Source of the DNA: a virus
DNA: 29,324 nt
IMG/VR virus record: IMGVR_UViG_3300030419_003638
Span: 1-29,324 of that record
Strand: one strand, 5' to 3'
The notes beneath the pieces were generated by a model. That model did no database searches, was not told where the DNA came from, and saw only the letters and a program-made list of their open reading frames with translations. Below, piece after piece: positions 4,260 to 21,007 of the stretch. The position numbers and the translations under genes were made by a program. The number at the start of each line of letters is the position of its first letter. Position 1 is the stretch's first letter.

Positions 4260-4288
4260 TTGACACAAGGCCAAGTGGTGGATACTCG
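4260..4288 (+). promoter_or_regulatory. Probable sigma70-type promoter for the 522-aa gene
   Basis: A perfect -35 box TTGACA (4260-4265) is followed 17 bases later by TACTCG (4283-4288). GATACT at 4281-4286 is a second reading of the -10 with a 15-base spacer. The same pattern, TTGACG, 17 bases, TACTTT, occurs at 9084-9112. Transcription would begin near 4295, shortly before ATG 4314. Confidence 0.55.
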
Positions 4289-4313
4289 CAACTTGACACC
4301 AACAGGACCTACC

Positions 4314-5882
4314 ATGCTCAAGACCACCGACACCATCGTTCCGTCTCGCAACGCTCAGATTCAGTGGACCCACGGGGTCTACGAATACGGCTCAACCAAG
4401 CCCGTGTCCCTGCACGACAGTCCGGAGGCTGCCCGGACCGAGGCCCACCGCCTGACCTACAGCCCCGACAACCTGGAGGAGCACCATGGTGAGCAGTGGC
4501 CGCTCGTCCAGTACACCTCCAGCAGCCGTGCTACGTCCAGCCGTGACGGGGTCCAGCTCGGACAGGTCTACGCCATCGCTTCCGAGAACCTCAAGCCCCT
4601 GTCCACCAAGCTGAAGCGGCTGGCCACCAAGGCCGCCAAGCTCGGCATCGAGCCTCCGACCTGGACCGAGGTCGGCATTGTCGAGCGCGAGCGCGAGGAG
4701 CGCGACGGCCTGGGCATCAAGCGGTTCTGGACCCAGCGCCTCACCGCCCTGGCCGTCAGCTCCACCACCGTCGCCGTGGCCGGTTACCGGTTCGTGGCCA
4801 CCCTTGAGGGCTTCAAGGGTGAGGACGGCGAGTACCGCAACGTGTTGCGGATCAACCCGTCCATCGAGGACTCGCTGATTCCTCACGAGTACCGTGAGCG
4901 TGGGCCGGTCTGTGACCACTGCGGCACCGAGCGTCGGCGCAACCAGACCTTCCTGGTTCGCAAGGACGAGGACGGGTCCTTCCTTCAGGTCGGACGGAAC
5001 TGCCTCGCCGACTTCATCGGTGGTAAGGACAGCGCCGACGCTGCCCGGCTCGCCAGCTACGAGCGGGACCTTGCCGTAGCCCTGGCCGACGGCGAGGATG
5101 GCGGCGGCTACGCCTCGGTCTCCATGTCCACCAGCATCCTGGCGTTCCTGTCGACGGTCGCAACCCACGTCCGCAACAGCGGCTGGGTCAGCCGTGGGGC
5201 CGCTCGGATTGACGGTGGGCAGGCGACTGCCGACGAGGTGCTGCTGCGGCTTCACCCCGTCGGAGCCAAGGAGGAGCAGGAAGCCGAGGCCCTGGCCGAG
5301 AAGTGCCCCATCGAGGAGCGCGACACCGCCGAGGCCGAGGCCACCCTGGAGTGGGTCCGAGGCCTGGACGTGGACACCGACATCGGTGACAGCGACTACC
5401 TTTGGAACCTGTACGTGGCCTGCTCGCTGGGCACCGTGCAGCCCAAGGAAGCTGGCATCGTGGCGTCCGCTGTCGCCGCGTACCAGCGCCACCTGGGCAA
5501 GCTCCGCAAGCGTGAGCGCCAGCAGTCCCTGGCCGAGACCTCTCGGCACATCGGTGCCAAGGGCGACAAGATCGGGACGAGGCTTACGGCTACCGACAAG
5601 CGCAAGGGTGCCAACCTGCTGGCCCCCATCCCGGTCACACTGACCAGGATTGGTGGGTTCGAGGGACACTACGGGTACACCTGGATCCTCCAGCTGGTGA
5701 CCACCGATGGCTCCGTCCTGAAGTGGTTCTCGTCCCGCAACACCGACAGCGAGGGCGAGTCCCTGACCGAGGGCGAGGACTACATCCTGACCGGGTCCAT
5801 CAAGTCGCACGGCGACTACAAGGGGGTCGCCGAGACCTCGGTCACCCGCGCCACCCTGACCCCTGCCACTGCTGCAAAGTAG
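4314..5882 (+). CDS. 522-aa zinc-binding protein with possible C-terminal OB fold; plasmid/phage conserved family
   Basis: ATG 4314 is preferred to an upstream TTG at 4260, because that TTG is part of the -35 box and AGGA at 4304-4307 serves ATG 4314. The middle of the protein holds CDHC at residues 200-203, followed by RRRNQTFLVRKDEDG and then GRNCL with Cys230, a treble-clef-like zinc pattern. The last 80 residues look like an OB fold, with alternating strands (YTWILQLVTTDG, then VLKWFSSRN) and a GSIKSHGDYKG segment. From memory, similar proteins with the CDHCG and GRNCL motifs occur on plasmids and phages near ArdC-type genes. Their function is not known to me. An ssDNA-binding or processing role is an inference from the OB-like end. 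Confidence 0.8.
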   Translation: MLKTTDTIVPSRNAQIQWTHGVYEYGSTKPVSLHDSPEAARTEAHRLTYSPDNLEEHHGEQWPLVQYTSSSRATSSRDGVQLGQVYAIASENLKPLSTKLKRLATKAAKLGIEPPTWTEVGIVEREREERDGLGIKRFWTQRLTALAVSSTTVAVAGYRFVATLEGFKGEDGEYRNVLRINPSIEDSLIPHEYRERGPVCDHCGTERRRNQTFLVRKDEDGSFLQVGRNCLADFIGGKDSADAARLASYERDLAVALADGEDGGGYASVSMSTSILAFLSTVATHVRNSGWVSRGAARIDGGQATADEVLLRLHPVGAKEEQEAEALAEKCPIEERDTAEAEATLEWVRGLDVDTDIGDSDYLWNLYVACSLGTVQPKEAGIVASAVAAYQRHLGKLRKRERQQSLAETSRHIGAKGDKIGTRLTATDKRKGANLLAPIPVTLTRIGGFEGHYGYTWILQLVTTDGSVLKWFSSRNTDSEGESLTEGEDYILTGSIKSHGDYKGVAETSVTRATLTPATAAK

Positions 5883-5895
5883 ACCACCAACCCCC

Positions 5896-5931
5896 GAGGG
5901 GCGGCTCCGGCCGCTCCTCACACAAGGAGAA
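5896..5931 (+). promoter_or_regulatory. Hairpin plus ribosome-site cassette, copy 2
   Basis: GAGGGGCGGC (5896-5905) pairs with GCCGCTCCTC (5910-5919) through nine Watson-Crick pairs and one G-U pair, around TCCG. ACAAGGAGAA follows at 5922-5931 and ATG at 5936. The arm begins with the same GAGGGGCGG as copy 1. Confidence 0.75.
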
Positions 5932-5935
5932 CAGC

Positions 5936-6223
5936 ATGGCCACCAAGACCTACCCCACCCTCGACCCCTCCACCGTCGTCGTCGAGACCGCCGCCCACTG
6001 GCTCCAGATGCCAACGGAGTACGACGCCGACGAGGTCACCGACGAGGACATCGCCTACGACGGCGCGATCGTTGACCTGAGCAGCGCTGGCTATGGCTGG
6101 CTGATTGACTGCCGCACCGGAAAGTTCATCAGACCGGCCACCTGTGCAGAGTCGGACGCGAGCGACGCCGGCGGCGAGCAGGGGCTTTTCGAGTTCGGTG
6201 GGATGACCTACTGGGTGAACTGA
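5936..6223 (+). CDS. Hypothetical acidic protein, 95 aa
   Basis: The frame is open further upstream, but ATG 5936 is the start because ACAAGGAGAA (5922-5931) lies four bases ahead of it. The product is acidic, with an Asp/Glu-rich stretch (EYDADEVTDEDIAYDG) that looks exposed. After it come a hydrophobic core (IVDLSSAGYGWLIDC) and an aromatic C-terminus (FEFGGMTYWVN). Acidic small phage proteins sometimes mimic DNA, but nothing here demonstrates that. The gene ends at TGA 6221-6223, 34 bases before the next start. The family is not recognised. Confidence 0.7.
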   Translation: MATKTYPTLDPSTVVVETAAHWLQMPTEYDADEVTDEDIAYDGAIVDLSSAGYGWLIDCRTGKFIRPATCAESDASDAGGEQGLFEFGGMTYWVN

Positions 6224-7357: not shown

Positions 7358-7590
7358 CCGAGATCAGCCGCACCGCCTTGACGTCCGCCGAAGCTATCCG
7401 CATCGGCACACGTCTGGCCGAGGAGGCCGGGTATGACCGGATCAACGAGGCTTGGCCACGCCGATGCTCAGCCAACAGGCTTTGGACGGTCTACCTCCGA
7501 CACGGGCCTCGCGGCCAACAACTCGCAGGTATCGCCGTCATTCGTGACGACTCCCCCGAGACCGCCACGTTCACAACGGAAGTGATGTAA
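7354..7590 (+). CDS. Hypothetical protein, 78 aa
   Basis: GTG 7354 overlaps the upstream stop (GTGA at 7354-7357) and follows GAGGTGATGT, a variant of the junction cassette. The product opens TEISRTALTSAEAIRIG, carries a helix with Arg and Glu, and ends TATFTTEVM with two strand-like segments (WTVYLRHG and LAGIAVIRD). It resembles a small alpha/beta protein. The stop TAA overlaps the ATG of the methyltransferase gene as TAATG at 7588-7592, so the two are translationally coupled. Perhaps it assists the methyltransferase, but that is context only. Confidence 0.7.
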   Translation: MTEISRTALTSAEAIRIGTRLAEEAGYDRINEAWPRRCSANRLWTVYLRHGPRGQQLAGIAVIRDDSPETATFTTEVM

Positions 7591-8126
7591 TGAGCTTTCC
7601 CAACACCTCAGTCTCCGAGCGCTGGGCCACCCCGCAGTGGCTCTTTGACAGGCTCGACGCCGAGTTCCACTTCGACCTCGACGCTGCCGCAGACTCAACG
7701 AACCACAAGTGCAAGCGGTGGATCGGTCAAGACGAGGACGCCCTTGCCCTTGTGTCTCCTTGGTATGGGCCAATCGGGCAGCGATATGCTGTTTGGTGCA
7801 ACCCTCCGTACCGAAAGAGCGGCGGAGGCATCTACCCTTGGCTGGAGAAGGGTCTGGAGACGGCCCGGAATGGCACGACTTGCGTCATGCTGATCTACGC
7901 CAGGACAGACACCAGGGCTTGGACGGAAATCGTCCATCCCTACGCCGACGAGGTACGCCTGATCGCCGGCCGTCTGAAGTTCGATCCGCCTCCGGACTAC
8001 ACCGGCACCGCAACGACCGCTGGTGCTCCGTCTGCCGTCATCATCTTTCGACCAGAGACAGCCTGGATGGGCAGGCCTGGTGGGGCTCAGTATCGAGTGA
8101 TGGAGCAGGTGGAGGTGACGTCGTGA
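7590..8126 (+). CDS. dam: DNA N-6-adenine methyltransferase, phage Dam family
   Basis: The 178-residue product matches the phage Dam family (PF05869-like). It has SERWATPQWLF at 9-19, the FDLDAAA segment at 28-34 that contributes to the SAM site, and the catalytic NPPY at 71-74. KSGGGIYPWL follows, then a core strand CVMLIYARTDT and a final AVIIFRP strand. It transfers a methyl group from SAM to N6 of adenine in DNA, in the host cytoplasm, and the usual phage benefit is protection from restriction. The length is typical. The start ATG overlaps the previous stop (TAATG), and the end carries the GGAGGTGACGTCGTGA junction. Its target sequence cannot be read from the protein. Together with ArdC it gives two separate ways to escape restriction. 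Confidence 0.88.
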   Translation: MSFPNTSVSERWATPQWLFDRLDAEFHFDLDAAADSTNHKCKRWIGQDEDALALVSPWYGPIGQRYAVWCNPPYRKSGGGIYPWLEKGLETARNGTTCVMLIYARTDTRAWTEIVHPYADEVRLIAGRLKFDPPPDYTGTATTAGAPSAVIIFRPETAWMGRPGGAQYRVMEQVEVTS

Positions 8127-11184: not shown

Positions 11185-11379
11185 ATGAACACATACAAGA
11201 TCATCAGGATGTTCCAAGCTCAGCGCCAAAACGAGGTCGTAAAGACCGGACTGACCTTGGAACAGGCACAGGAGCATTGCTCCGACCCGGAGACAAGCTC
11301 CAGGACCTGCACTACACCGGAGAGCCGTGAGCGGACCGAGAGGTCTGGACCATGGTTCGACGGCTACTCCTCGGAGTAG
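11185..11379 (+). CDS. Conserved phage protein with DPETSSRTCT and GPWFDGY motifs, 64 aa
   Basis: ATG 11185 is used in place of an in-frame upstream ATG at 11137, because that would overlap the previous gene and the family usually begins with a short MxxYKIIR segment. The sequence MNTYKIIRMFQ, then LTLEQAQEHCSDPETSSRTC and the ending GPWFDGYSSE, matches a small protein I recognise from many unrelated phages, always as a hypothetical. The motif order and length are typical. Its function is not established to my knowledge. The residues suggest a compact beta-alpha fold. It ends at TAG 11377-11379 before the structured leader. Confidence 0.8.
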   Translation: MNTYKIIRMFQAQRQNEVVKTGLTLEQAQEHCSDPETSSRTCTTPESRERTERSGPWFDGYSSE

Positions 11380-11393
11380 AGAACATCTCGTGT

Positions 11394-11516
11394 CCCCCGT
11401 TGCTTGTCCTAAGTCCCGCCGCGTCGGGAGCAACGGAATGGGGCATGGTTACGACGCAGCGGGCTCGGCGACTGGGGGCGTCCAGAGGTGACCAGCACGA
11501 TGGTCACCAACCCCCA
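11394..11516 (+). promoter_or_regulatory. Structured leader of the clamp-like gene (two compound hairpins)
   Basis: In the 167 bases between genes, CCGTTGCT (11397-11404) pairs with AGCAACGG (11429-11436), enclosing CCCG (11415-11418) paired with CGGG (11425-11428). Outer bases 11394-11396 can pair with the G-run near 11440. A second structure has TGGGGG (11473-11478) with CCCCCA (11511-11516) around GGTGACCA (11487-11494) paired with TGGTCACC (11501-11508). No ORF explains the region. It could be a regulatory leader, a terminator pair or a small RNA. Confidence 0.55.
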
Positions 11517-11546
11517 ACCCTTCACCCCTCACTGACAGGAGAACCC

Positions 11547-12143
11547 ATGTTCATTCCGTACAAGATGGCCAAGGCCTTGGCCATCACAATGAGCAAAGAC
11601 CCAACCCGACCCACCTTGAATCAAATCGGTGTCCACGCCATCACTGACAACCGGCTCAGGCTTGAGAGCAGCGATGGATACCGGATGACACGACTTCAGT
11701 TTCCAAACAGCATTGGCGCACGCGCTGGCGAGAGGTTCGCCATCAAGGCATCCGAAATCTTGAACCTTTGTGTTGGCATTGCCAACGTCGATCAGGGCCT
11801 CCAAAACATGGAGATGTTGGAGGGGCAGAACCGCTTCCCCTCCACCGACCATGTGGTGCCATTTGAAAACCGGACGCCAGCCAAGATCGTCGGGTTCGAT
11901 CCTTTGTTTCTGAAAGAGGCTTACGAAGTGATCGACTGGACCACCAAAAGAACAGCCCACAAGGAAGTTGGGTTTGGATTCAAGCAGCGCCGAGCCTCGA
12001 ACACCCTTGTCAAGTGGTCCCACGGAGCCCAACATGAGCCTGTGGTCCTGTCCTGGACGTTCGACTTGACCATAGAAGAGCACGAGCAGCCGGAACGGGA
12101 CCTGCGTGGAACCATTGTCCTCATGCCAAAGCGGATTGACTAA
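11547..12143 (+). CDS. Probable sliding-clamp-like protein (DnaN-like domain), 198 aa
   Basis: The frame is open from 11352, but ATG 11547 follows CAGGAGA (11536-11542) and begins after the structured leader. The product resembles part of a beta sliding clamp. The segment GVHAITDNRLRLESSDGYRM matches the pattern in DnaN where a strand is followed by a loop ending in TDGHRL. After it come ERFAIKASEIL and later strands (TIVLMPKRID at the end). A full DnaN is about 366 residues with three domains, so this is shorter and might form a different ring or act as a clamp mimic. Clamps tether the polymerase to DNA. The position upstream of the replication genes supports this. Confidence in the family is moderate. 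Confidence 0.6.
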   Translation: MFIPYKMAKALAITMSKDPTRPTLNQIGVHAITDNRLRLESSDGYRMTRLQFPNSIGARAGERFAIKASEILNLCVGIANVDQGLQNMEMLEGQNRFPSTDHVVPFENRTPAKIVGFDPLFLKEAYEVIDWTTKRTAHKEVGFGFKQRRASNTLVKWSHGAQHEPVVLSWTFDLTIEEHEQPERDLRGTIVLMPKRID

Positions 12144-12573: not shown

Positions 12574-12624
12574 TACGTGTCTTATCACATTACTCACTGG
12601 ACCAGGTGTCCCTTTACACAATCG

Positions 12625-12915
12625 TTGGTTTCAAGCGTCGAGCTGTACCTCGGCCATCCAATATCAGTTGTAGGCTTACATCACTCGACCTGGGCTCCAA
12701 TCTTTGTTGTGTGCAGCCCCTCAAAGGAGGCCTCCAGAAGGCTTCAGGACGCTTCTGACGACCGAGGGAGGGCCGTGGCCTACTGGGGCTCATGGAAGAC
12801 CGTCAACGGGCACCGGGTGACCGGATACCGGCTTCTTCTAAAGGGCGAGCCAGTGCCTGGCTCAAGCACAAGGCCAATCAAATCACGTCTTGCGCAAGCC
12901 GATGCCCAGACATAG
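12625..12915 (+). CDS. Doubtful protein, about 96 aa
   Basis: The frame is open from GTG 12541 to TAG 12913-12915. The first 84 bases overlap the start of the leftward gene and read poorly, so I give TTG 12625 as a possible start, without a ribosome site. From there the product looks protein-like: SSVELYLGHPISVVGLHH, then APIFVVCSPSKEASRRLQDA, then TVNGHRVTGYRLLLKGEPVP. It has strands and a charged helix with reasonable codon use. It could also be the degraded 3' part of a former gene. I do not recognise it. Confidence 0.35.
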   Translation: MVSSVELYLGHPISVVGLHHSTWAPIFVVCSPSKEASRRLQDASDDRGRAVAYWGSWKTVNGHRVTGYRLLLKGEPVPGSSTRPIKSRLAQADAQT

Positions 12916-12952
12916 GCTTCAGGTGGGTGATCTCCTGTCAGAATCAACCCAC

Positions 12953-12987
12953 GCCCCCAGCCCCACCGCTTCTCCGGGGCTGGGGGC
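12953..12987. repeat. 12-bp perfect inverted repeat
   Basis: GCCCCCAGCCCC (12953-12964) is the exact reverse complement of GGGGCTGGGGGC (12976-12987), with an 11-base loop. There is no T-run after it on either strand. Confidence 0.75.
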
Positions 12988-13014
12988 ACCTCACCAAAGA
13001 GGTTACCTTCGCGA

Positions 13015-13071
13015 GTCCGCTGGGTGTAGACCAAACCCTTGTGGGCGGTACTACGCGAGAGCCCAGCGGAC
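13015..13071. ncRNA. 57-base multi-segment hairpin
   Basis: GTCCGCTGGG (13015-13024) pairs with CCCAGCGGAC (13062-13071). Inside, GTAG (13026-13029) pairs with CTAC (13051-13054), ACC (13030-13032) with GGT (13047-13049), and CCC (13036-13038) with GGG (13043-13045) around TTGT. Twenty base pairs in three segments form one long imperfect stem. It is too short for a tRNA and lacks a T-loop. Whether it acts as RNA or as DNA is unknown. Confidence 0.5.
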
Positions 13072-13082
13072 ACACTTTCCTC

Positions 13083-13189
13083 GGCCTGCGGCATCCAACC
13101 AACGGCATTCCGCCTACCATGAACGGAATGAACGCTCTGAGGGTGTGCCGCCAGCATTCCGCTGGAGCCCCAGTGGGATGTCGCAGGCC
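13083..13189. ncRNA. 107-base three-way-junction candidate
   Basis: GGCCTGCGGCATCC (13083-13096) pairs with GGATGTCGCAGGCC (13176-13189) through 13 Watson-Crick pairs and one G-U pair. The enclosed bases hold two further perfect hairpins: CATTCCG (13106-13112) with CGGAATG (13124-13130), and CCAGC (13151-13155) with GCTGG (13161-13165). This is a branched fold. The single G-U pair favours an RNA fold on the plus strand over a DNA cruciform. Confidence 0.5.
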
Positions 13190-13199
13190 ATCTATTCAC

Positions 13200-13239
13200 A
13201 GCGGTAAAACAGACCGCTCACAAGCCCACCTGGATGGGC
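13200..13239. repeat. Two short hairpins next to the replication promoter
   Basis: AGCGGT (13200-13205) pairs with ACCGCT (13213-13218), and GCCCA (13224-13228) pairs with TGGGC (13235-13239). The second ends five bases before the -35 box at 13244. Confidence 0.5.
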
Positions 13240-13243
13240 ATCC

Positions 13244-13273
13244 TTGACAGACCAGAACCGCACAAGGTAGAAG
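13244..13273 (+). promoter_or_regulatory. Probable promoter of the replication operon
   Basis: A perfect TTGACA (13244-13249) is followed 18 bases later by TAGAAG (13268-13273), which matches four of six consensus bases. It would give a leader of about 95 bases before the short ORF at 13374. Confidence 0.5.
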
Positions 13274-13314
13274 ACCTTCACTCCAATCTCTGGATGTGGC
13301 TCACACGAGCCGCC

Positions 13315-13335
13315 CCCCCCGGTCGCTCCGGGGGG
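13315..13335 (+). promoter_or_regulatory. GC hairpin in the replication-operon leader
   Basis: CCCCCCGG (13315-13322) pairs with CCGGGGGG (13328-13335) around TCGCT. It lies between the predicted promoter and the 17-codon ORF at 13374. It could stall polymerase or ribosomes, or simply be another hairpin before a start. Confidence 0.5.
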
Positions 13336-13373
13336 CTCTCCAGGGACGGGAACATCAGAGAACTGGAGACGAT

Positions 13374-13427
13374 ATGTCAGAACAGGCCGGTGCAGAAGTG
13401 CGCCACCGACCAACAGGCTCAAGATGA
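13374..13427 (+). CDS. 17-aa leader peptide coupled to the initiator gene
   Basis: ATG 13374 has GGAGA (13365-13369) five to eight bases ahead and opens a 17-codon frame, MSEQAGAEVRHRPTGSR. Its TGA overlaps the ATG of the next gene as ATGA (13424-13427). The initiator gene has no good ribosome site of its own at 13424, so re-initiation after this peptide could set its expression. It is too short to judge by composition. The call rests on the ribosome site and the overlap. Confidence 0.45.
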   Translation: MSEQAGAEVRHRPTGSR

Positions 13428-14404
13428 GCGTTGCCTCGGACTACGGAGACCTGCTTCGGACCGAGTGGTCCGAGCCAATCAAGCCGCTCTATGCTCGGGT
13501 CGAGCTTCAGACGATCATCGACGCTGGAGACCTCAAGTCCTGGTCTAAGCGAAAGCTGCGGGCACGCTGGCGTTGGTCCTTTGCCAAGACCGCATCCCTT
13601 TGGGACCAGATGACCGGTGAATCGCATCGCAGTAGCGTTCCGGTAGCGTCTGAATCGCGTTCCAGTAGCACCCAGACGAGCCAGTCAGCCAATGTAGAGG
13701 CGCAGCCGGTAGCGCTTGAGTTGCAAGACGATTCCGCCTCACGCACGCCGGCATCCGCGCCCGGATCAACTGTGATTCCCCCCCCTCCCCCTACGGGGGA
13801 GTCTCCCCCCCACGGGGGAGAGGTCACTTCTCGACCCGAGATCAAGCCAAGCCATGCTCACGAGGTCTTCCTCTACTGGAAGGCCTGGCATCCAGGGGCA
13901 AGGAAGCTCAGCACGGGAGACCGGACCCTCATCAACGCCCGGATTCGAGAATCAAGCGTTGCGGACTGCAAGCTGGTCATCCGGTGGGCACATGAAGCCG
14001 GTGATGCCAGCTTCTTCCGAGGCGAGAACGACCGTGGCAAGAAGTACCTCGGGCTGCCGACGCTGATGAAGTCAAAGGGGTGGTCGTCCAGGCTTGGCGA
14101 CGCCACTGACTGGAAGGACCGGGGCTACCAGGACCTCAGGCCAAAGTCATCCGCACAGGATGCATCGGTTGCAGACCGTGCATGGGCGCGACTGAAGGCG
14201 GTTTCAGGAATGGACTCGCCTCCTGGCGTTGGTTGGCACTTCTCAACAAACAAAGACCCGAGGTTTGACTCCATGGCCATCGACGCGGTCCGTAGCGTCT
14301 GGGGTTCATGGCGGGAGATGGGCTCGGACACCGGCCTTGACTTCAAGGCCAAGCAGTTCAAACAAGCATTCTTGGATTCTTACAGCAGGAGAAGCTCTCA
14401 ATGA
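13424..14404 (+). CDS. Probable replication initiator or helicase loader, 326 aa
   Basis: Residues 1-65 are a basic helical domain (SKRKLRARWRWSFAKTASLW) that may be a DNA-binding winged helix. Residues about 65-142 are a low-complexity Ser/Pro linker containing PPPPPTGESPPHGGE. Residues about 145-225 form a helical domain (LYWKAWHPGARKLS, then ARIRESSVADCKLVIRWAHE, then FFRGENDRGKKYLGLPTLMK). I recognise the GENDRGK..Y..L...L pattern from phage replication-associated proteins upstream of helicases. The stop overlaps the DnaB ATG as ATGA (14401-14404). This layout fits a loader that brings DnaB to the origin. Exact family (DnaD-, DnaT- or lambda O/P-like) is not clear. Confidence 0.7.
   Translation: MSVASDYGDLLRTEWSEPIKPLYARVELQTIIDAGDLKSWSKRKLRARWRWSFAKTASLWDQMTGESHRSSVPVASESRSSSTQTSQSANVEAQPVALELQDDSASRTPASAPGSTVIPPPPPTGESPPHGGEVTSRPEIKPSHAHEVFLYWKAWHPGARKLSTGDRTLINARIRESSVADCKLVIRWAHEAGDASFFRGENDRGKKYLGLPTLMKSKGWSSRLGDATDWKDRGYQDLRPKSSAQDASVADRAWARLKAVSGMDSPPGVGWHFSTNKDPRFDSMAIDAVRSVWGSWREMGSDTGLDFKAKQFKQAFLDSYSRRSSQ
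13785..13821 (+). repeat. Two tandem hairpins in the linker of the initiator gene
   Basis: CTCCCCC (13785-13791) pairs with GGGGGAG (13795-13801), and TCTCCCCC (13802-13809) pairs with GGGGGAGA (13814-13821). They encode the Pro/Gly linker. An eight-C run (13778-13785) and a seven-C run (13805-13811) lie here, both prone to slippage. Confidence 0.75.
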
Positions 14405-15804
14405 ACGACCAGACGTTTCCAAATGCCATTGGTGCCGAGCGCTCCTTGCTTGGGTGCATCATCATGGACTCCAGCTTGATTTCAAAGGTCAAGGACCTTG
14501 TCGGGCCTGAAGACTTCTATGACGGCAGGCACCGGAGGATCATGGAGCTTGTTCTCAAGATGCACGAGTCCGGCGACGCCATCGACCAGATGACTGTTGT
14601 TCAGGTGGTTGCAAGTTCTGGTGCTGACGAGAGGACATACGGTGGACCCGCATACGTGCTCGGCCTGTCCGACTCTGTCGTGACAATGCTTCACACGGAG
14701 CAGCACGCTTCCCTGATTCGCCAGACCTCCATACGTCGGATGATGATGATGGGGTTCAAAGACCTGTCGATGAAGGTCCAGGACAGCGAGACCGCCCTGG
14801 CAGCGGTTGTGTCTGAGTGCATGAGCCTGGCAAAGAGGGCATCTGACCAAGCTCCAGGAAGGTCTGTCTGGAAGGACATGGAGGCTGTCATTGATGCCCA
14901 CGACAAAGAGATGGAGGAGAGGTTTAGGGCCGCCAATGAGCAGCGCGTGATCGGTGTTCCGACAGGCTTGATCGAGCTTGACCACAAGCTCGGAGGACTG
15001 AAGCCCGGCAAGAGCTACGTCGTCGCAGCAAGGCCCGCGATGGGCAAGAGCGCTGTCTTGAGCAACATCCTGACCTACGCGGGACGCAACGGGCATCGGT
15101 GCGCCGAGTTCTCTTTGGAGATGGGAGACGTAGAGCTGTTTGACCGTCAACTCGCTGACGTCGCCGGCATCAACTACGGACGCCTGCAGTCGGGGAAGCT
15201 CGACAAGCTCGACATGACGCGGATGGATGATGCAAAGAACGAAATGTACAGCTGGCCAATCCACCTGGATGACACTCCAGGAAGAAGCATTGGCCAAATC
15301 TGTGCAGCGGCCCGACAGCTCAAGTCAAAGCACCCCGACCTCTCCTTGATTGGGTTGGACTACATCCAGTTGACGCAGGCGTCGAGCCCTGAGGCAAAGA
15401 AGAAGCGCGAGCAAGCCATCTCGGAGATTAGTCGAGAGCTGAAGCTGCTTGCGCGAGAGCTGAATGTTGCGACGGTTGTTCTCGCTCAGCTCAACCGAGA
15501 GTGCGAGCGTCGGCCAAACAAGCGCCCCATGCTCAGCGATCTTCGGGAGTCTGGGGCGATTGAGCAGAACGCTGATGCCGTCATCATGCTGTACCGAGAT
15601 GAGTACTACAACCCAGACAGCCCGGACAAGGGCGTTGCGGAGCTTCTGATTCGTAAGAACCGGGGTGGAGCAACCGGAAAGGTGCGCCTGCTTTGGGAGC
15701 CTGAGTATCAGCGCTTCAGCACGCTCGCGGAAAACGTGGTCACCCTGTACGGGTCGTCTGGCTTCACTCCAGATCCCGACGATGACCTTGGTTTCAGCGG
15801 TTAG
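14401..15804 (+). CDS. dnaB: Replicative DNA helicase, DnaB family
   Basis: The 467-residue product has the two parts of DnaB. The N-terminal helical domain (residues about 5-105) begins PNAIGAERSLLGCII and includes the family signature for the collar. The RecA-like motor domain (about 180-450) carries Walker A ARPAMGKS at 210-217 with Lys216, a Glu-containing FSLEMG at 237-242, Walker B LIGLDYIQL at 316-324 with Asp320, the LAQLNRECERR motif at 361-371, and RKNRGG at 418-423 with arginine-finger candidates. It would act as a hexamer unwinding DNA 5' to 3' at the fork, in the cytoplasm. Length is normal. The gene overlaps the initiator by four bases. No primase or polymerase gene is seen in this window, so priming is probably by the host or from genes outside. 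Confidence 0.95.
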   Translation: MNDQTFPNAIGAERSLLGCIIMDSSLISKVKDLVGPEDFYDGRHRRIMELVLKMHESGDAIDQMTVVQVVASSGADERTYGGPAYVLGLSDSVVTMLHTEQHASLIRQTSIRRMMMMGFKDLSMKVQDSETALAAVVSECMSLAKRASDQAPGRSVWKDMEAVIDAHDKEMEERFRAANEQRVIGVPTGLIELDHKLGGLKPGKSYVVAARPAMGKSAVLSNILTYAGRNGHRCAEFSLEMGDVELFDRQLADVAGINYGRLQSGKLDKLDMTRMDDAKNEMYSWPIHLDDTPGRSIGQICAAARQLKSKHPDLSLIGLDYIQLTQASSPEAKKKREQAISEISRELKLLARELNVATVVLAQLNRECERRPNKRPMLSDLRESGAIEQNADAVIMLYRDEYYNPDSPDKGVAELLIRKNRGGATGKVRLLWEPEYQRFSTLAENVVTLYGSSGFTPDPDDDLGFSG

Positions 15805-16613: not shown

Positions 16614-16793
16614 CTACATCTCATCCTGATGAACCGGGACTGTTGTCCCGTCATCCCTGAGACGCCCAGCGGTTTCCAGCCGCTGGGCTCTTGCAATTGC
16701 CTCGCGCTCGGGCTCCGGCTCGTCAACATCCATGGCCCTGCGGACGTACTTGGCCATCCTGAGGACTTGCTTCCTGTTCTTTACTCGTGCCAT
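16614..16793 (-). CDS. Small charged protein, 59 aa
   Basis: The frame runs from the ATG whose complement is 16791-16793 to a TAG at 16616-16614. The stop lies immediately next to the stop of the rightward gene at 16613, with no base between. The product is basic at its start (MARVKNRKQVLRMAKYVRR) and charged throughout, ending DDGTTVPVHQDEM. The composition is that of a helical phage miniprotein. Two hairpins fall inside it. It would be the last gene of the leftward operon, 49 bases after the conserved gene at 16843-17118. A weak GGTAGG is its only ribosome site. Confidence 0.55.
   Translation of the reverse strand: MARVKNRKQVLRMAKYVRRAMDVDEPEPEREAIARAQRLETAGRLRDDGTTVPVHQDEM
16635..16688. 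terminator. Tandem hairpins at the convergent junction
   Basis: CGGGAC (16635-16640) pairs with GTCCCG (16645-16650) around TGTT, and GCCCAGCGG (16664-16672) pairs with CCGCTGGGC (16680-16688). They lie 21 and 50 bases after the rightward stop, within the leftward 59-aa gene. TCTTGC follows the second one, without a true T-run. They could stop rightward transcription. Confidence 0.45.
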
Positions 16794-17541: not shown

Positions 17542-17657
17542 TAGAACTCCCTTAGTGGAATGGACGAGCCACACCTCGCACAACCAGGCGTGGGCATGTA
17601 GGACTTGTGGCCGCAGAATCGGCAGTAGTAGGTCGGGGATGTGTTGAGAAAAGCCAT
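17541..17657 (-). CDS. Zinc-ribbon miniprotein, 38 aa
   Basis: I start at the ATG (complement 17655-17657) that overlaps the RusA stop as TGATG, with GGGAG five bases ahead. An in-frame ATG five codons earlier would begin inside the RusA gene. The product has CRFC and CARC ten residues apart, a classic two-pair ribbon, in YYCRFCGHKSYMPTPGC context, ending SSIPLREF. It is encoded between RusA and the duplicated-domain protein with overlapping stops and starts on both sides (TGATG and TAATG). It probably binds nucleic acid or a partner, perhaps modulating RusA, which is inference. Confidence 0.7.
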   Translation of the reverse strand: MAFLNTSPTYYCRFCGHKSYMPTPGCARCGSSIPLREF

Positions 17658-18079
17658 CAGTGCTCCCAGCATCCCTGCATGACAACCTTTGCATAGGGGC
17701 TGGAGCCCTTTGGGGCATACCAAGTGCGCACCTTCAGGTTCCAGACTCGGGAGTCCGTGGTGAAGGCACCGCCCGCTTCCATGCCGTCCATGATGGCACC
17801 AACCGCGTTGTCGATGTCTGGCTTGGTGTGGCACGGGTTAGCGATGTCTGTCCACAGCTCCTTGGGGTAGCCCTGAGGCCTGGACTTTGGGCGCTGTTTG
17901 TAGATGTCGACCTCCAGGTAGATGGGCTCATCAAGCGGAGGGGCTCCCCGCATTGCGAGCTTTGTGACCTGGGCCACCATCTGGACGTACTTTTTGTACT
18001 TCTTAGGCATGAAGGTGCCATGCATCGTCACCCTTGGACGAGCCTTGCCAACCACCGCCCCTGGAATCTTGATGATCAT
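17657..18079 (-). CDS. rusA: RusA-type Holliday junction resolvase (variant active site)
   Basis: The 140-residue product matches RusA. It has IPGAVVGKARPRVT at 5-18, a strand-rich middle (YLEVDIYKQRP), then KPDIDNAVGAIMDGM at 86-100 and a downstream Asp109 in TTDSRVWNLKV. RusA of E. coli uses three aspartates (70, 72, 91) to bind metal and cut four-way junctions as a dimer. The equivalents Asp88, Asp90 and Asp109 are all present. The Lys that normally follows (Lys76 in E. coli) is replaced by Gly94 in the usual alignment. The gene overlaps the regulator's stop by four bases. It would resolve branched DNA made by the RecT pathway or in packaging. Length is slightly above the typical 120. Confidence 0.85.
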   Translation of the reverse strand: MIIKIPGAVVGKARPRVTMHGTFMPKKYKKYVQMVAQVTKLAMRGAPPLDEPIYLEVDIYKQRPKSRPQGYPKELWTDIANPCHTKPDIDNAVGAIMDGMEAGGAFTTDSRVWNLKVRTWYAPKGSSPYAKVVMQGCWEH

Positions 18080-18330
18080 TCGTCCATCTCGCTGAACTGC
18101 GGAAGGTCAAAGGGATCGATGTCCAGCCGGTCTATTAGAGCCATCAAAACACTATCGCCTGGGACCTTGCCGGCCTCTATCTGACAAAGGTATGGCTGAG
18201 TCACGCCAATAATATTGGAAAGCTCGACCTGGGTCAGATTTGACTGCAGCCGGTGCTGGCGGATTAGCCGTCCAAGCTGTTTCCCGGCGGGTTCCTTAGC
18301 AAGCAATCCCTTTACCCAGGGGTTATTCAT
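18076..18330 (-). CDS. XRE-family HTH transcriptional regulator, 84 aa
   Basis: Residues about 17-72 form a HTH_3 domain: GRLIRQHRLQSNLTQVELSN, then IIGVTQPYLCQIEAGKVPGD, with the recognition helix at about 44-52 (TQPYLCQIE). The short N-terminal arm and acidic end (LPQFSEMDE) fit a small Cro- or CI-like repressor. GGAGA (complement of 18339-18343) lies eight bases before the ATG. It is first in the leftward operon and diverges from the YqaJ gene. The intervening 56 bases hold promoters facing both ways and a palindrome, so it probably represses itself, the exonuclease promoter, or both. It is too short to carry the CI peptidase domain. Confidence 0.85.
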   Translation of the reverse strand: MNNPWVKGLLAKEPAGKQLGRLIRQHRLQSNLTQVELSNIIGVTQPYLCQIEAGKVPGDSVLMALIDRLDIDPFDLPQFSEMDE

Positions 18331-18332
18331 GA

Positions 18333-18361
18333 TTGATATCTCCAGTACCCACTGTTATAGT
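18333..18361 (+). promoter_or_regulatory. Rightward promoter of the yqaJ-recT operon
   Basis: TTGATA (18333-18338) and TATAGT (18356-18361) are separated by 17 bases, the best sigma70-type match in the window. Transcription would begin near 18368, ahead of CAGGAGAA (18371-18378) and ATG 18387. Confidence 0.7.
18343..18354. promoter_or_regulatory. Candidate operator palindrome
   Basis: CAGT (18343-18346) and ACTG (18351-18354) flank ACCC. It lies exactly between the -35 and -10 boxes of the rightward promoter and next to the leftward -10. A small HTH regulator is encoded a few bases away, so this is the first place to look for its binding site. Confidence 0.45.
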
Positions 18362-18383
18362 CAACCTCGACAGGAGAAGTCCA
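18354..18383 (-). promoter_or_regulatory. Leftward promoter of the regulator operon
   Basis: Read on the minus strand, TGGACT (complement of 18378-18383) is followed by 18 bases and TATAAC (complement of 18354-18359). The -10 occupies almost the same bases as the rightward -10. Transcription would start near 18348 and give a short leader that still includes the ribosome site. TTGACT at 18364-18359 offers a second -35 reading, but would give an almost leaderless mRNA. Confidence 0.5.
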
Positions 18384-18386
18384 GTA

Positions 18387-19271
18387 ATGAGCCGCGACGT
18401 ATATGACCGACGGTCGACCCTCGGTTCCAGCGACATTGCCAAAGTCCTTGGCCTATCCCCGTGGGGAGACGCCTGGGATGTCTGGCTGGAGAAGACCGGG
18501 CGGACCGAGTCCTCACAGGGGTTCACTGGTGACCAGGCCGCAGGTAACATGATGGAGGATGCGGTTGCTCGTGAGATGGGCAAGCGCATGGATCTCATCT
18601 TTGAGCCGGGCCCTGCTCTTTCCGAACCCCCAAACATCGGACAAGAGCCGTGGATGAGCGCAAGAGTCGACTTCCGTGGCCGCGTCTGGAAGGGCCGCAG
18701 CTGGAAGTGCGGGCTGGAGGTCAAGACCCTAAGGTCGTTTGGCGATGATTGGGGGCCTGATGGCTCAGACCTCTTCCCGCCAGACAAAGCGGCACAGGTG
18801 GTCTGGCAGCAGGCGGTCGATGACTCGTACCCGTTTACCGTGCTCGCCGCATGGGCCTGGTCGAGCTACGAGTTGCGCACCTACCGCATTGAGCGAGACA
18901 AGTCCGTCGAGAAGGCGCTTGTTGATCGGATGAGGGGGTGGTGGCACGACTATGTCGAGAAGGACACCCCTCCCCCGGTTACCGGCTCAAAGGGATGCAG
19001 CACTGGACTGGCAAGCCTGTTCCCTACCCCTAAAAAGAAGACCTATCGAGAGGCCACTGCTCTCGAAATCAAGCTGATTGACGCCTACAAGCATCAGGTC
19101 GACGCAGAAAGGGCTGCACAGAAGGAAAAGAGGGAGCTTGGGAATCTAATCAAGCAAGCCATTGGGTCGGACTACGGCCTGAAGGCAGAAAATGGCAGCC
19201 CCATCATCATTTGCTACCACCAAGGCAAGGGCAAGCGCCTAAAGCCTCTCAAACAGGATGAATCTGAATGA
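18387..19271 (+). CDS. YqaJ-family viral recombinase exonuclease
   Basis: ATG 18387 follows CAGGAGAA (18371-18378). An in-frame ATG at 18333 lies in the promoter and is rejected. The 294-residue product has the PD-(D/E)xK core of YqaJ/lambda exonuclease: RRSTLGSSDIAKVLGLSPWG at 8-27, Glu57 in GNMMED, Asp95 in SARVDF, Glu111-Val-Lys113 in GLEVKT, and QVVWQQ at 137-142. Such enzymes digest one strand of duplex DNA 5' to 3', as trimers, to expose ssDNA for the partner annealing protein. After about residue 205 a Lys-rich helical tail follows. The stop overlaps recT as ATGA. The pair forms a standard phage recombination module. Confidence 0.9.
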   Translation: MSRDVYDRRSTLGSSDIAKVLGLSPWGDAWDVWLEKTGRTESSQGFTGDQAAGNMMEDAVAREMGKRMDLIFEPGPALSEPPNIGQEPWMSARVDFRGRVWKGRSWKCGLEVKTLRSFGDDWGPDGSDLFPPDKAAQVVWQQAVDDSYPFTVLAAWAWSSYELRTYRIERDKSVEKALVDRMRGWWHDYVEKDTPPPVTGSKGCSTGLASLFPTPKKKTYREATALEIKLIDAYKHQVDAERAAQKEKRELGNLIKQAIGSDYGLKAENGSPIIICYHQGKGKRLKPLKQDESE

Positions 19272-20455
19272 GCAACAACGCCGTTGTAAAGTTCGAGGCC
19301 ACTCTCGCGCAAGTCATGCCGAAGGTTCGGGCTGGGTTTCCAATGTCCATCCCGGACGACAAGCTCCAGCGGGCCACTGACCGCCTGATGTTTGCCATCA
19401 AGGCGTCTGCGACCGCAAACGCCAAGATTTATGACTGCACAGCATCCTCGGTTGCTAACTGCATCTGCCTCTCGGCCCTGACAGGGCTTCTTCCTGGCGG
19501 CGCAGTGCCCGTGGTGGACCTCATCCCTCGCCAGCGGTCCTTCAAGGGCCCACGGGGCTGGCAGAAGGTCATGGAACTCAACTGGCAGATTGGCTGGCGT
19601 GGGTACAAGGCCCTCGGAGAGAAGCTCGGGGCGGTTCTTGAGCCGCGACTGGTGTTCAAGACCGACAAGTACGATGTGCGGTTTGGGTTGAACCCAGACC
19701 TGGTCCATGTTCCAGACCTCGATGGAGACCGGACATGGGAAAACCTCCGTGGCGCGTACATCATTGTCCGTCTGCCCAACGGACACGTCAGCTTCACGGA
19801 TCTGACCAAGGCAGAGATTGAGAAGCGCCGCGCCGTTTCTCAGGCCTGGCAGTACGACCAGAAGGACAACAAGTCCGCCTCCCCATGGAGCCAGTGGCCA
19901 TTGGAGATGGCTCTCAAGACCATCGTCTCCTACGCAGCCCGAAGGGGGCTCTTCCCCATCGATGAAGAGTTCACCATGGCGCTCGACCTGGACGGAAGAG
20001 AGGCACCAGACAACGTCCTTGTCTTTGACGCCGAGGCCGAGGAGGTCAAAGAGCCCAAGGCCGAGCCAAAGAGCATTGCATCATCGACCGGAATGGGGGC
20101 CCTGGACAGCGTCCTCAAGGCCGCTCCGTTGCCCGAGCCTATTCCGGTTGACTTCAGTGAACAGTCGCCCCCTGAGCGCAAGCCTGAGCCAGAGGAACCC
20201 CAAACTCCTGCGGGGTACAACGGTCCTCAACCATCCTCAGCGCCGGGACTTGCTCTCGGGGGCGGCTCTCCTTCTGGAGTTAGCCAGGCATCAATCGCGG
20301 CTGCTGAGCAGCGGATTCCAGAGCAGTCCGTGTTCTCAATCAGAAAGCAGCTTGGCATCCGAAAGAATGCCCGAGTTGAGTCCATGGATGAGGACGTGAA
20401 GACAACGTACCTGGACTGGCTTGAGTCCGAATACGCTGAACTTCATCCAGGGTGA
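19268..20455 (+). CDS. recT: RecT-family single-strand annealing protein
   Basis: The 395-residue product has the RecT core at about residues 20-250. It includes ASSVANCICLSALTGLLPGG at 59-78, the strand-helix segment ELNWQIGWRGYKALGEKLG near 103-121, AYIIVRLPNGHVSFTDLTK near 163-181, and SPWSQWPLEMALKTIVSYAA near 204-223 followed by RRGLFPIDEEF. RecT binds ssDNA from the exonuclease and anneals it to complementary strands. The usual length is about 270-300, so the additional 130 residues form a Pro/Glu-rich linker and a final helical segment (FSIRKQLGIRKNARVESMDE) of unknown role. It overlaps yqaJ by four bases and ends at TGA 20453-20455. Confidence 0.9.
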   Translation: MSNNAVVKFEATLAQVMPKVRAGFPMSIPDDKLQRATDRLMFAIKASATANAKIYDCTASSVANCICLSALTGLLPGGAVPVVDLIPRQRSFKGPRGWQKVMELNWQIGWRGYKALGEKLGAVLEPRLVFKTDKYDVRFGLNPDLVHVPDLDGDRTWENLRGAYIIVRLPNGHVSFTDLTKAEIEKRRAVSQAWQYDQKDNKSASPWSQWPLEMALKTIVSYAARRGLFPIDEEFTMALDLDGREAPDNVLVFDAEAEEVKEPKAEPKSIASSTGMGALDSVLKAAPLPEPIPVDFSEQSPPERKPEPEEPQTPAGYNGPQPSSAPGLALGGGSPSGVSQASIAAAEQRIPEQSVFSIRKQLGIRKNARVESMDEDVKTTYLDWLESEYAELHPG

Positions 20456-20459
20456 TGTG

Positions 20460-20473
20460 GCCAGAAGGCTGGC
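20460..20473. terminator. Hairpin filling the gap between convergent recT and the late genes
   Basis: GCCAG (20460-20464) pairs with CTGGC (20469-20473) around AAGG. It takes up nearly all of the 18 bases between the recT stop and the end of the late gene at 20474. Only five pairs are made and no T-run follows, so termination would be inefficient. Confidence 0.35.
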
Positions 20474-21007
20474 TTACGCGGTGATGGAGTACTGAGTCCC
20501 CACCGCGTGGGCCTCGAACAGCGTCAGCCCGGACAGGTCGTCTTGAACAGTCAGGACGAGGCTGTCCAGGCTGTTTGGCCTGATGGTCAACGGCTTCGGC
20601 CAGCTTACTGTCGCAACAAGATGGTCTGTTCCGGCTGCAATCCCGTCGGTCTTCCCGACAATCTTGACCCCCGATCCTGACCAGGATGTGTACCTGTAAA
20701 GGTCAATGATCTTCTTGACCGGAGCAGGGAAAACCTCCACCGACACTATCGGGGAGCCCTTCTTTTCTGTCAGCTTGATGCCGTTAGTGAGGGCACCTGA
20801 AGCACCAAACACACGAAGCTCTGAGGCTGTGGCAAGGTCCATACCAGATGAGTGGATGGTAAGGATCAGGTCCGTCACCTCAAAGGTGACTCCGCTTGGA
20901 GGGCTCAAAGTAAACTCAACAGCGGTCGATGAACCATCCACGTTCATCGACGCACTGCTTGAGCTATTGAGCAACTGCTTGCTCAACAAACGGAAGTTCT
21001 TTCCCAT
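20474..21007 (-). CDS. Beta-rich virion-like protein, 177 aa
   Basis: The start ATG overlaps the upstream gene's stop as TAATG (21009-21005). The protein has Ser/Thr-rich, alternating hydrophobic sequence typical of beta sandwiches, for example STAVEFTLSPPSGVTFEVTD, LILTIHSSGMDLATASELRV and DSLVLTVQDDLSGLTLFEAH. It has no cysteine and no membrane segment. Comparable late phage proteins are decoration or fibre components and sometimes carry sugar-binding folds. It lies at the 3' end of the leftward late operon, after the lysis genes. Identification as a virion protein is by composition and place only. Confidence 0.6.
   Translation of the reverse strand: MGKNFRLLSKQLLNSSSSASMNVDGSSTAVEFTLSPPSGVTFEVTDLILTIHSSGMDLATASELRVFGASGALTNGIKLTEKKGSPIVSVEVFPAPVKKIIDLYRYTSWSGSGVKIVGKTDGIAAGTDHLVATVSWPKPLTIRPNSLDSLVLTVQDDLSGLTLFEAHAVGTQYSITA

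Follow-up and report, generated by a model that had tools for sequence, protein, structure and literature searches.

Upstream of the putative replication initiator gene of the virus recorded as IMGVR_UViG_3300030419_003638, we identified a run of hairpins that very probably represents a real, conserved structured RNA encoded on the + strand. The whole record, 29,324 bases, was analyzed (the window), and was compared with a related viral contig (L002, hereafter the relative). The element may act as the regulatory 5' (or intercistronic) leader of the initiator-DnaB operon and control initiator translation through a short leader ORF, a reading that we favor tentatively and at somewhat less than even confidence. 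The features concerned are the following:

12917-13368, + strand: the element overall, ~450 nt and non-coding, from two bases past the stop of the preceding gene to the GGAG of the leader ORF.
12917-12922, + strand: CTTCAG, the 5' border helix strand; its predicted partner (13363-13368) covers the leader ORF Shine-Dalgarno.
12924-12951, + strand: hairpin Z, 10 pairs with two bulges, from the consensus fold of the window and the relative; all pairs invariant.
12953-12987, + strand: hairpin A, 12 perfect pairs (12953-12964/12976-12987); no U-tract on its 3' side.
12990-13001, + strand: small hairpin A', located in the most diverged stretch, with a double compensatory change (12991/13000, U-A to C-G).
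13015-13071, + strand: hairpin B, three segments and 21 pairs, with an invariant asymmetric loop GCGAGAG.
13083-13189, + strand: element C, a 14-pair closing stem with inner hairpins 13106-13130 and 13147-13168.
13200-13218, + strand: hairpin D, 6 pairs, all invariant in the relative.
13224-13239, + strand: hairpin E, 5 pairs, all invariant in the relative.
13244-13273, + strand: possible promoter TTGACA-N18-TAGAAG, read from the sequence; TAGAAA in the relative.
13282-13350, + strand: element G, a three-way junction of a closing stem and hairpins 13296-13313 and 13315-13335, just 5' of the Shine-Dalgarno.
13365-13368, + strand: GGAG, Shine-Dalgarno of the leader ORF, 5 nt 5' of the ATG at 13374; the same in the relative.
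13374-13427, + strand: 17-codon leader ORF, MSEQAGAEVRHRPTGSR, whose stop overlaps the initiator start as ATGA.
13424-14404, + strand: putative replication initiator gene (phrog_428, E = 0.0016, a weak profile match), adjoining the DnaB gene.
13631-13713, + strand: four iteron-like RGTAGC boxes (at 13631, 13642, 13664 and 13708) in the initiator gene, a candidate origin; all kept in the relative.
14401-15804, + strand: DnaB-like replicative helicase gene (Pfam DnaB_C, 3.7e-82).

The region is carried by two viral contigs at 89.6% identity to the window (approximately 1.1 kb compared). These contigs are identical to each other across the region, so that the comparison effectively involves two distinct sequences, and the covariation evidence is accordingly thin. 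A blastn search of phage records with the region DNA gave no match, and the nearest deposited phages share at most about 36% identity in DnaB. Apart from remote initiators, searching viral contigs with DnaB and the initiator yielded nothing beyond the two near-identical contigs; three motif patterns run against viral contigs, and one against genome contigs, revealed no further relatives (the same two contigs or none), and no DnaB was found in the genome contigs searched for it.

Between the stop at 12915 and the initiator start at 13424 the window and the relative differ by 81 substitutions in 508 nt, compared with 51 in the 981 nt of the adjacent initiator gene. Codon-position counts reveal a third-position excess in the real genes flanking the gap and none in the ORFs that cross it, which rules out coding sequence through the gap. 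The claim that no gene explains the hairpins therefore holds, the only plausible ORF being the 17-codon one at the end of the gap.

All hairpins that the original prediction had listed between 12953 and 13239 were recovered by sequence reading and RNA folding, although the pair counts differ slightly. The 12-bp perfect hairpin is the stem of hairpin A; stems of 12 perfect pairs enclosing loops no longer than 110 nt occur twice in the whole 29-kb window, this being one of them, and in none of 5 simple shuffles. The 57-base three-segment hairpin is hairpin B, for which folding gives 21 pairs and not the 20 counted before, and the 107-base structure is element C, complete with closing stem, two inner hairpins and a G-U pair (13091/13181). 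The two smaller hairpins are D and E, followed by TTGACA from 13244. The cluster is real, but its limits had been drawn too narrowly, as the run also takes in hairpins Z and A', element G and a possible hairpin at 13242-13267, in which bases of the TTGACA box may alternatively form five pairs (13242-13246/13263-13267).

A stretch of 495 nt from 12930 folds at -219 kcal/mol (z = -6.05), with 0 of 100 dinucleotide-preserving shuffles as stable, and hairpins A, B and C are each more stable than all 200 of their own shuffles. By single-sequence folding energy alone the region is not the strongest in the window; it is the comparison with the relative that singles it out. The strongest single-sequence fold (z -6.2, + strand) is found at 20441-20560, at the ends of two converging genes, where the relative is missing 12 nt.

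The consensus fold of the window and the relative contains 128 pairs, six of which are changed on both sides (12921/13364, 12991/13000, 13016/13070, 13093/13179, 13098/13174, and 13143/13170), and the covariance check that had been proposed thus finds the pairing conserved. None of the 21 pairs of hairpin B is broken in the relative, and one (13016/13070) is changed from U-A to C-G; element C contains the double changes at 13093/13179, 13098/13174, and 13143/13170, and its G-U pair becomes A-U. Shifting the partner column by 1-3 leaves at most one double compensatory pair; this control is biased toward the fold, as the fold was derived from the same two sequences. In the window's own fold, 35 of 310 paired positions are changed in the relative, versus 46 of 198 unpaired ones. 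For stems defined from the window only (A, B, the closing stem of C, D/E, and the core of F, hairpin 13316-13334), the relative breaks a single pair, compared with 10.1 expected if the same changes were placed at random, and none of 5000 simulations was that low; the double-change count alone is modest in this test. In a pairwise-alignment scan over 10 kb, the top eight of 678 conserved-structure windows all fell in the gap region. The GC content is high and many GC-rich stretches of the window fold, as would be seen if GC-rich DNA folded by accident; this explanation is contradicted by the dinucleotide-controlled z, by stems that are kept while loops have diverged, and by the 10-kb scan, and we consider it extremely improbable.

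The + strand usually outscores the - strand in the scan windows of the region, with the clearest differences at 13073 (z = -7.8 versus -4.4), 13193, and 13253 (-7.1 versus -1.8). For element G, the fold z on the + strand is -3.8 in the window and -4.4 in the relative, compared with -1.65 for the - strand of the window. The whole-gap consensus energy gives z = -11.1 (+) and -6.6 (-) over 200 column shuffles, values that are inflated on both strands because such shuffles do not preserve dinucleotides (the dinucleotide value is the -6.05 given above). Palindromic DNA selected as duplex or cruciform would be expected to lack a strand preference, and a + strand RNA is thus favored. The original prediction had argued for RNA from the G-U pair in the closing stem; the conclusion stands, the argument from a single pair is weak, and the two-strand comparison is the better evidence. 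Its suggestion of a new structured RNA is likewise supported, by the compensatory changes that keep pairing, by the strand preference and by a covariance-model search of Rfam 15 (including large phage RNAs), which gave no match at the gathering score and, at E <= 5, weak matches at chance level.

The position of the cluster just before the initiator and DnaB genes, together with its conserved arms, would also suit a DNA element in which extruded hairpins serve as replication origin or single-strand initiation site. In addition to the + strand preference, the cluster's composition argues against this: it has at most 2 repeat pairs per 150 nt and a GC content of 61.6%, and it lacks iteron-like direct repeats and an AT-rich stretch. 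Iteron-like boxes are found within the initiator gene instead, as are repeats in L006 and L013, which carry remote relatives of the initiator. In L013 and L015 the closest of the ORFs listed on the upstream side lie within a few bases of the initiator gene or overlap it, leaving no comparable gap. Nothing was found that points to a single-strand initiation site at the cluster. A DNA element is therefore improbable, and the earlier proposal that the cluster may be the origin is not supported.

The replication origin most likely lies inside the initiator gene itself. The assignment of this gene follows from the weak phrog_428 match, the neighboring DnaB gene and a predicted outline of two helical parts, N and C, separated by an unstructured linker; the structure model is of low confidence (mean pLDDT 48) and was used for the outline only. 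The RGTAGC boxes are spaced by 11, 22, and 44, none of which is a multiple of 3, so they are not simply codon repeats. The gene contains 17 repeat pairs, compared with a local-shuffle mean of 0.37 (maximum 5), an excess that is marginal against the best window of whole-gene shuffles (maximum 15) and that in the relative does not surpass its own control. A striking GGAACGTTCC palindromic repeat array inside the initiator gene of L013 (L013:3800-4000) is a good candidate for an origin; in L006, likewise inside the initiator gene, CTCCGGAC repeats precede a stretch that is rich in purines and in AT. The lambda origin lies inside the O gene, and there, as predicted here, iteron-like boxes occupy the part of the initiator gene coding for the linker between two domains (PMC4488673). 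Unlike those of lambda, the boxes here are short and irregular in spacing and have no AT-rich segment beside them: 13565-13760 is 61.7% GC, and the most AT-rich 50-mer of 12600-14400 begins at 14355. The boxes, the L013 and L006 arrays, the lambda precedent and the gapless arrangement in L013 and L015 together favor the initiator gene over the hairpin cluster as the probable site.

Two candidate origin marks were rejected. The repeats of L015 are low-complexity codon repeats (CTCCTG) rather than iterons, and the substitution-free run at 13727-13900 was dropped since longer ones exist elsewhere (213 and 205 nt). Within this 174-nt run the initiator gene contains two tandem CCCCCnACGGGGGAG hairpins (13787-13820; - strand fold z -5.7).

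Several other features of the window were recorded. The product of 11352-12143 is possibly a phage sliding clamp, judging from weak matches to DNA polymerase III beta/processivity factor, and also matches weakly a RusA-like resolvase family. A small HTH_3 helix-turn-helix gene (18076-18330, - strand) lies beside RecE-like and RecT-like genes (18333-20455, + strand) and a RusA gene (17657-18079), in what may be a lysogeny or early control region. An ArdC-like anti-restriction protein with a zincin domain is encoded at 586-1560 and a Dam methylase at 7590-8126. Two 540-codon ORFs overlap on opposite strands (4260-5882, +; 4392-6014, -), the + strand ORF matching phrog_2319, a family of unknown function for which one phage has a RecT-like annotation. 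The sequence GCCCAGCGG/CCGCTGGGC at 16664-16688 forms a terminator-like hairpin followed by TCTTGC, just 3' of a + strand gene.

At the 3' end of the element, the leader ORF is short and fast-evolving, yet its frame stays open in both sequences across 15 differences (the product in the relative is MPEQAGATVRRGPMGPR). GGAG is the only good Shine-Dalgarno at this end of the leader. The initiator start has no recognizable one, although many other genes of the window do, and both the ATGA overlap and the good leader ORF Shine-Dalgarno are present in the two sequences. As the initiator start overlaps the leader ORF stop and lacks a Shine-Dalgarno, its translation is probably coupled to that of the leader. 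The predicted helix 12917-12922/13363-13368, which covers GGAG, forms in both sequences with pair probabilities of 0.83-0.97, and one of its pairs, 12921/13364, is changed on both sides from A-U to G-C. Shuffled alignments often form such a helix, with at least 6 long-range pairs in 36% of them and a compensatory one included in 14%; by itself the helix is thus not significant, and we treat it as a prediction rather than a result.

If the element is the leader of the initiator-DnaB operon, the + strand transcript would carry a structured leader of ~450 nt, in which local hairpins and two junctions follow one another and the two ends are paired. The closed fold would sequester the leader ORF Shine-Dalgarno and keep initiator output, and hence replication, low, whereas a ribosome, protein or RNA partner that opened the fold would allow the initiator to be made. 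A promoter scan of the region on both strands found no promoter-like site; the TAGAAG box is not listed by it, as the scan demands a final T. As we identified no promoter that could give the full leader, we assume that transcripts begin farther upstream and run through hairpin A; were the TTGACA box the promoter, the mRNA would contain element G only.

Transcription rather than translation might be the process controlled, with hairpin A (and perhaps 13315-13335) acting as a terminator without U-tract that insulates two operons, and B and C as a put-like antitermination element in the nascent RNA. Hairpin A does begin 37 nt past the stop of the preceding gene, and its stem is identical in the relative while its 11-nt loop has diverged; the put RNAs of HK022, placed early in phage operons, are cis-acting structured nascent RNAs (PMC9378689), as the present element would be. 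They measure ~70 nt and have two stem-loops, compared with ~450 nt and at least 7 local structures here, and the architecture of B and C is unlike put (sequence relation was compared through Rfam only). No T-run follows hairpin A, ACCTCACC coming next, a terminator scan listed nothing in this region, and a hairpin of more typical terminator form, ending in a TCTT tail, lies elsewhere (16664-16688). We regard this reading as unlikely.

The ornate architecture, with the invariant internal loops of B, could instead belong to a free-standing structured ncRNA (approximately 13000-13350), processed or separately transcribed, working in trans or as a ribonucleoprotein and unrelated to initiator translation. 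Bacteria and phages are known to make large RNAs such as GOLLD and ROOL (PMC12286853), and prophages with a required ncRNA near the replication region are known (PMC7157519). The RNA-based prophage origins of cluster A mycobacteriophages similarly place an ncRNA near phage replication functions (PMC7157519); those phages have parABS and no RepA-like initiator, whereas the phage studied here encodes DnaB and probably an initiator, and par genes were absent among those of its proteins that were scanned. Against a free-standing RNA, Rfam contains no match, no promoter was found between hairpins A and B, and the element reaches as far as the replication operon's Shine-Dalgarno, which suits a leader. 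This reading is in our view unlikely.

The leader reading has its closest parallel in R1/IncFII and I-complex plasmids, in which a structured leader and a short, translated leader ORF precede the initiator gene and the initiator is thought to depend on coupling (PMC5717011; PMC10724649); in plasmid R1, repA is translationally coupled to the leader peptide tap (PMC5717011). As in those systems, the initiator start is overlapped by the leader ORF and has no Shine-Dalgarno of its own, in both sequences. Unlike them, this is a phage operon with another sequence and layout; the plasmid systems include CopA (R1/IncFII) or a pseudoknot and RNAI (I-complex), and the phage resembles them in a leader layout read from sequence. 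The Rfam antisense and leader families gave no match to the element, and no phage with this arrangement turned up in a literature search. To our knowledge, lambda has no such structured leader.

A more far-reaching version, which we consider possible though doubtful, is that the element is a large undescribed phage RNA of ~450 nt with two three-way junctions and possibly a pseudoknot, in which end-to-end pairing would be a translational switch of the initiator, giving plasmid-like replication control. A loop-linker pseudoknot between 13038-13049 (the B loop) and 13213-13224, complementary at 11 of 12 positions, is an only suggestive lead, such matches occurring in 1 of 20 shuffles.

If the leader reading is true, initiator production in this phage is regulated by a leader that is both large and structured, together with a leader ORF coupled to the initiator, as is known chiefly from plasmids. 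The element would then be a defined RNA with a conserved architecture, without a match in current RNA family databases and set apart from the likely origin in the neighboring gene.
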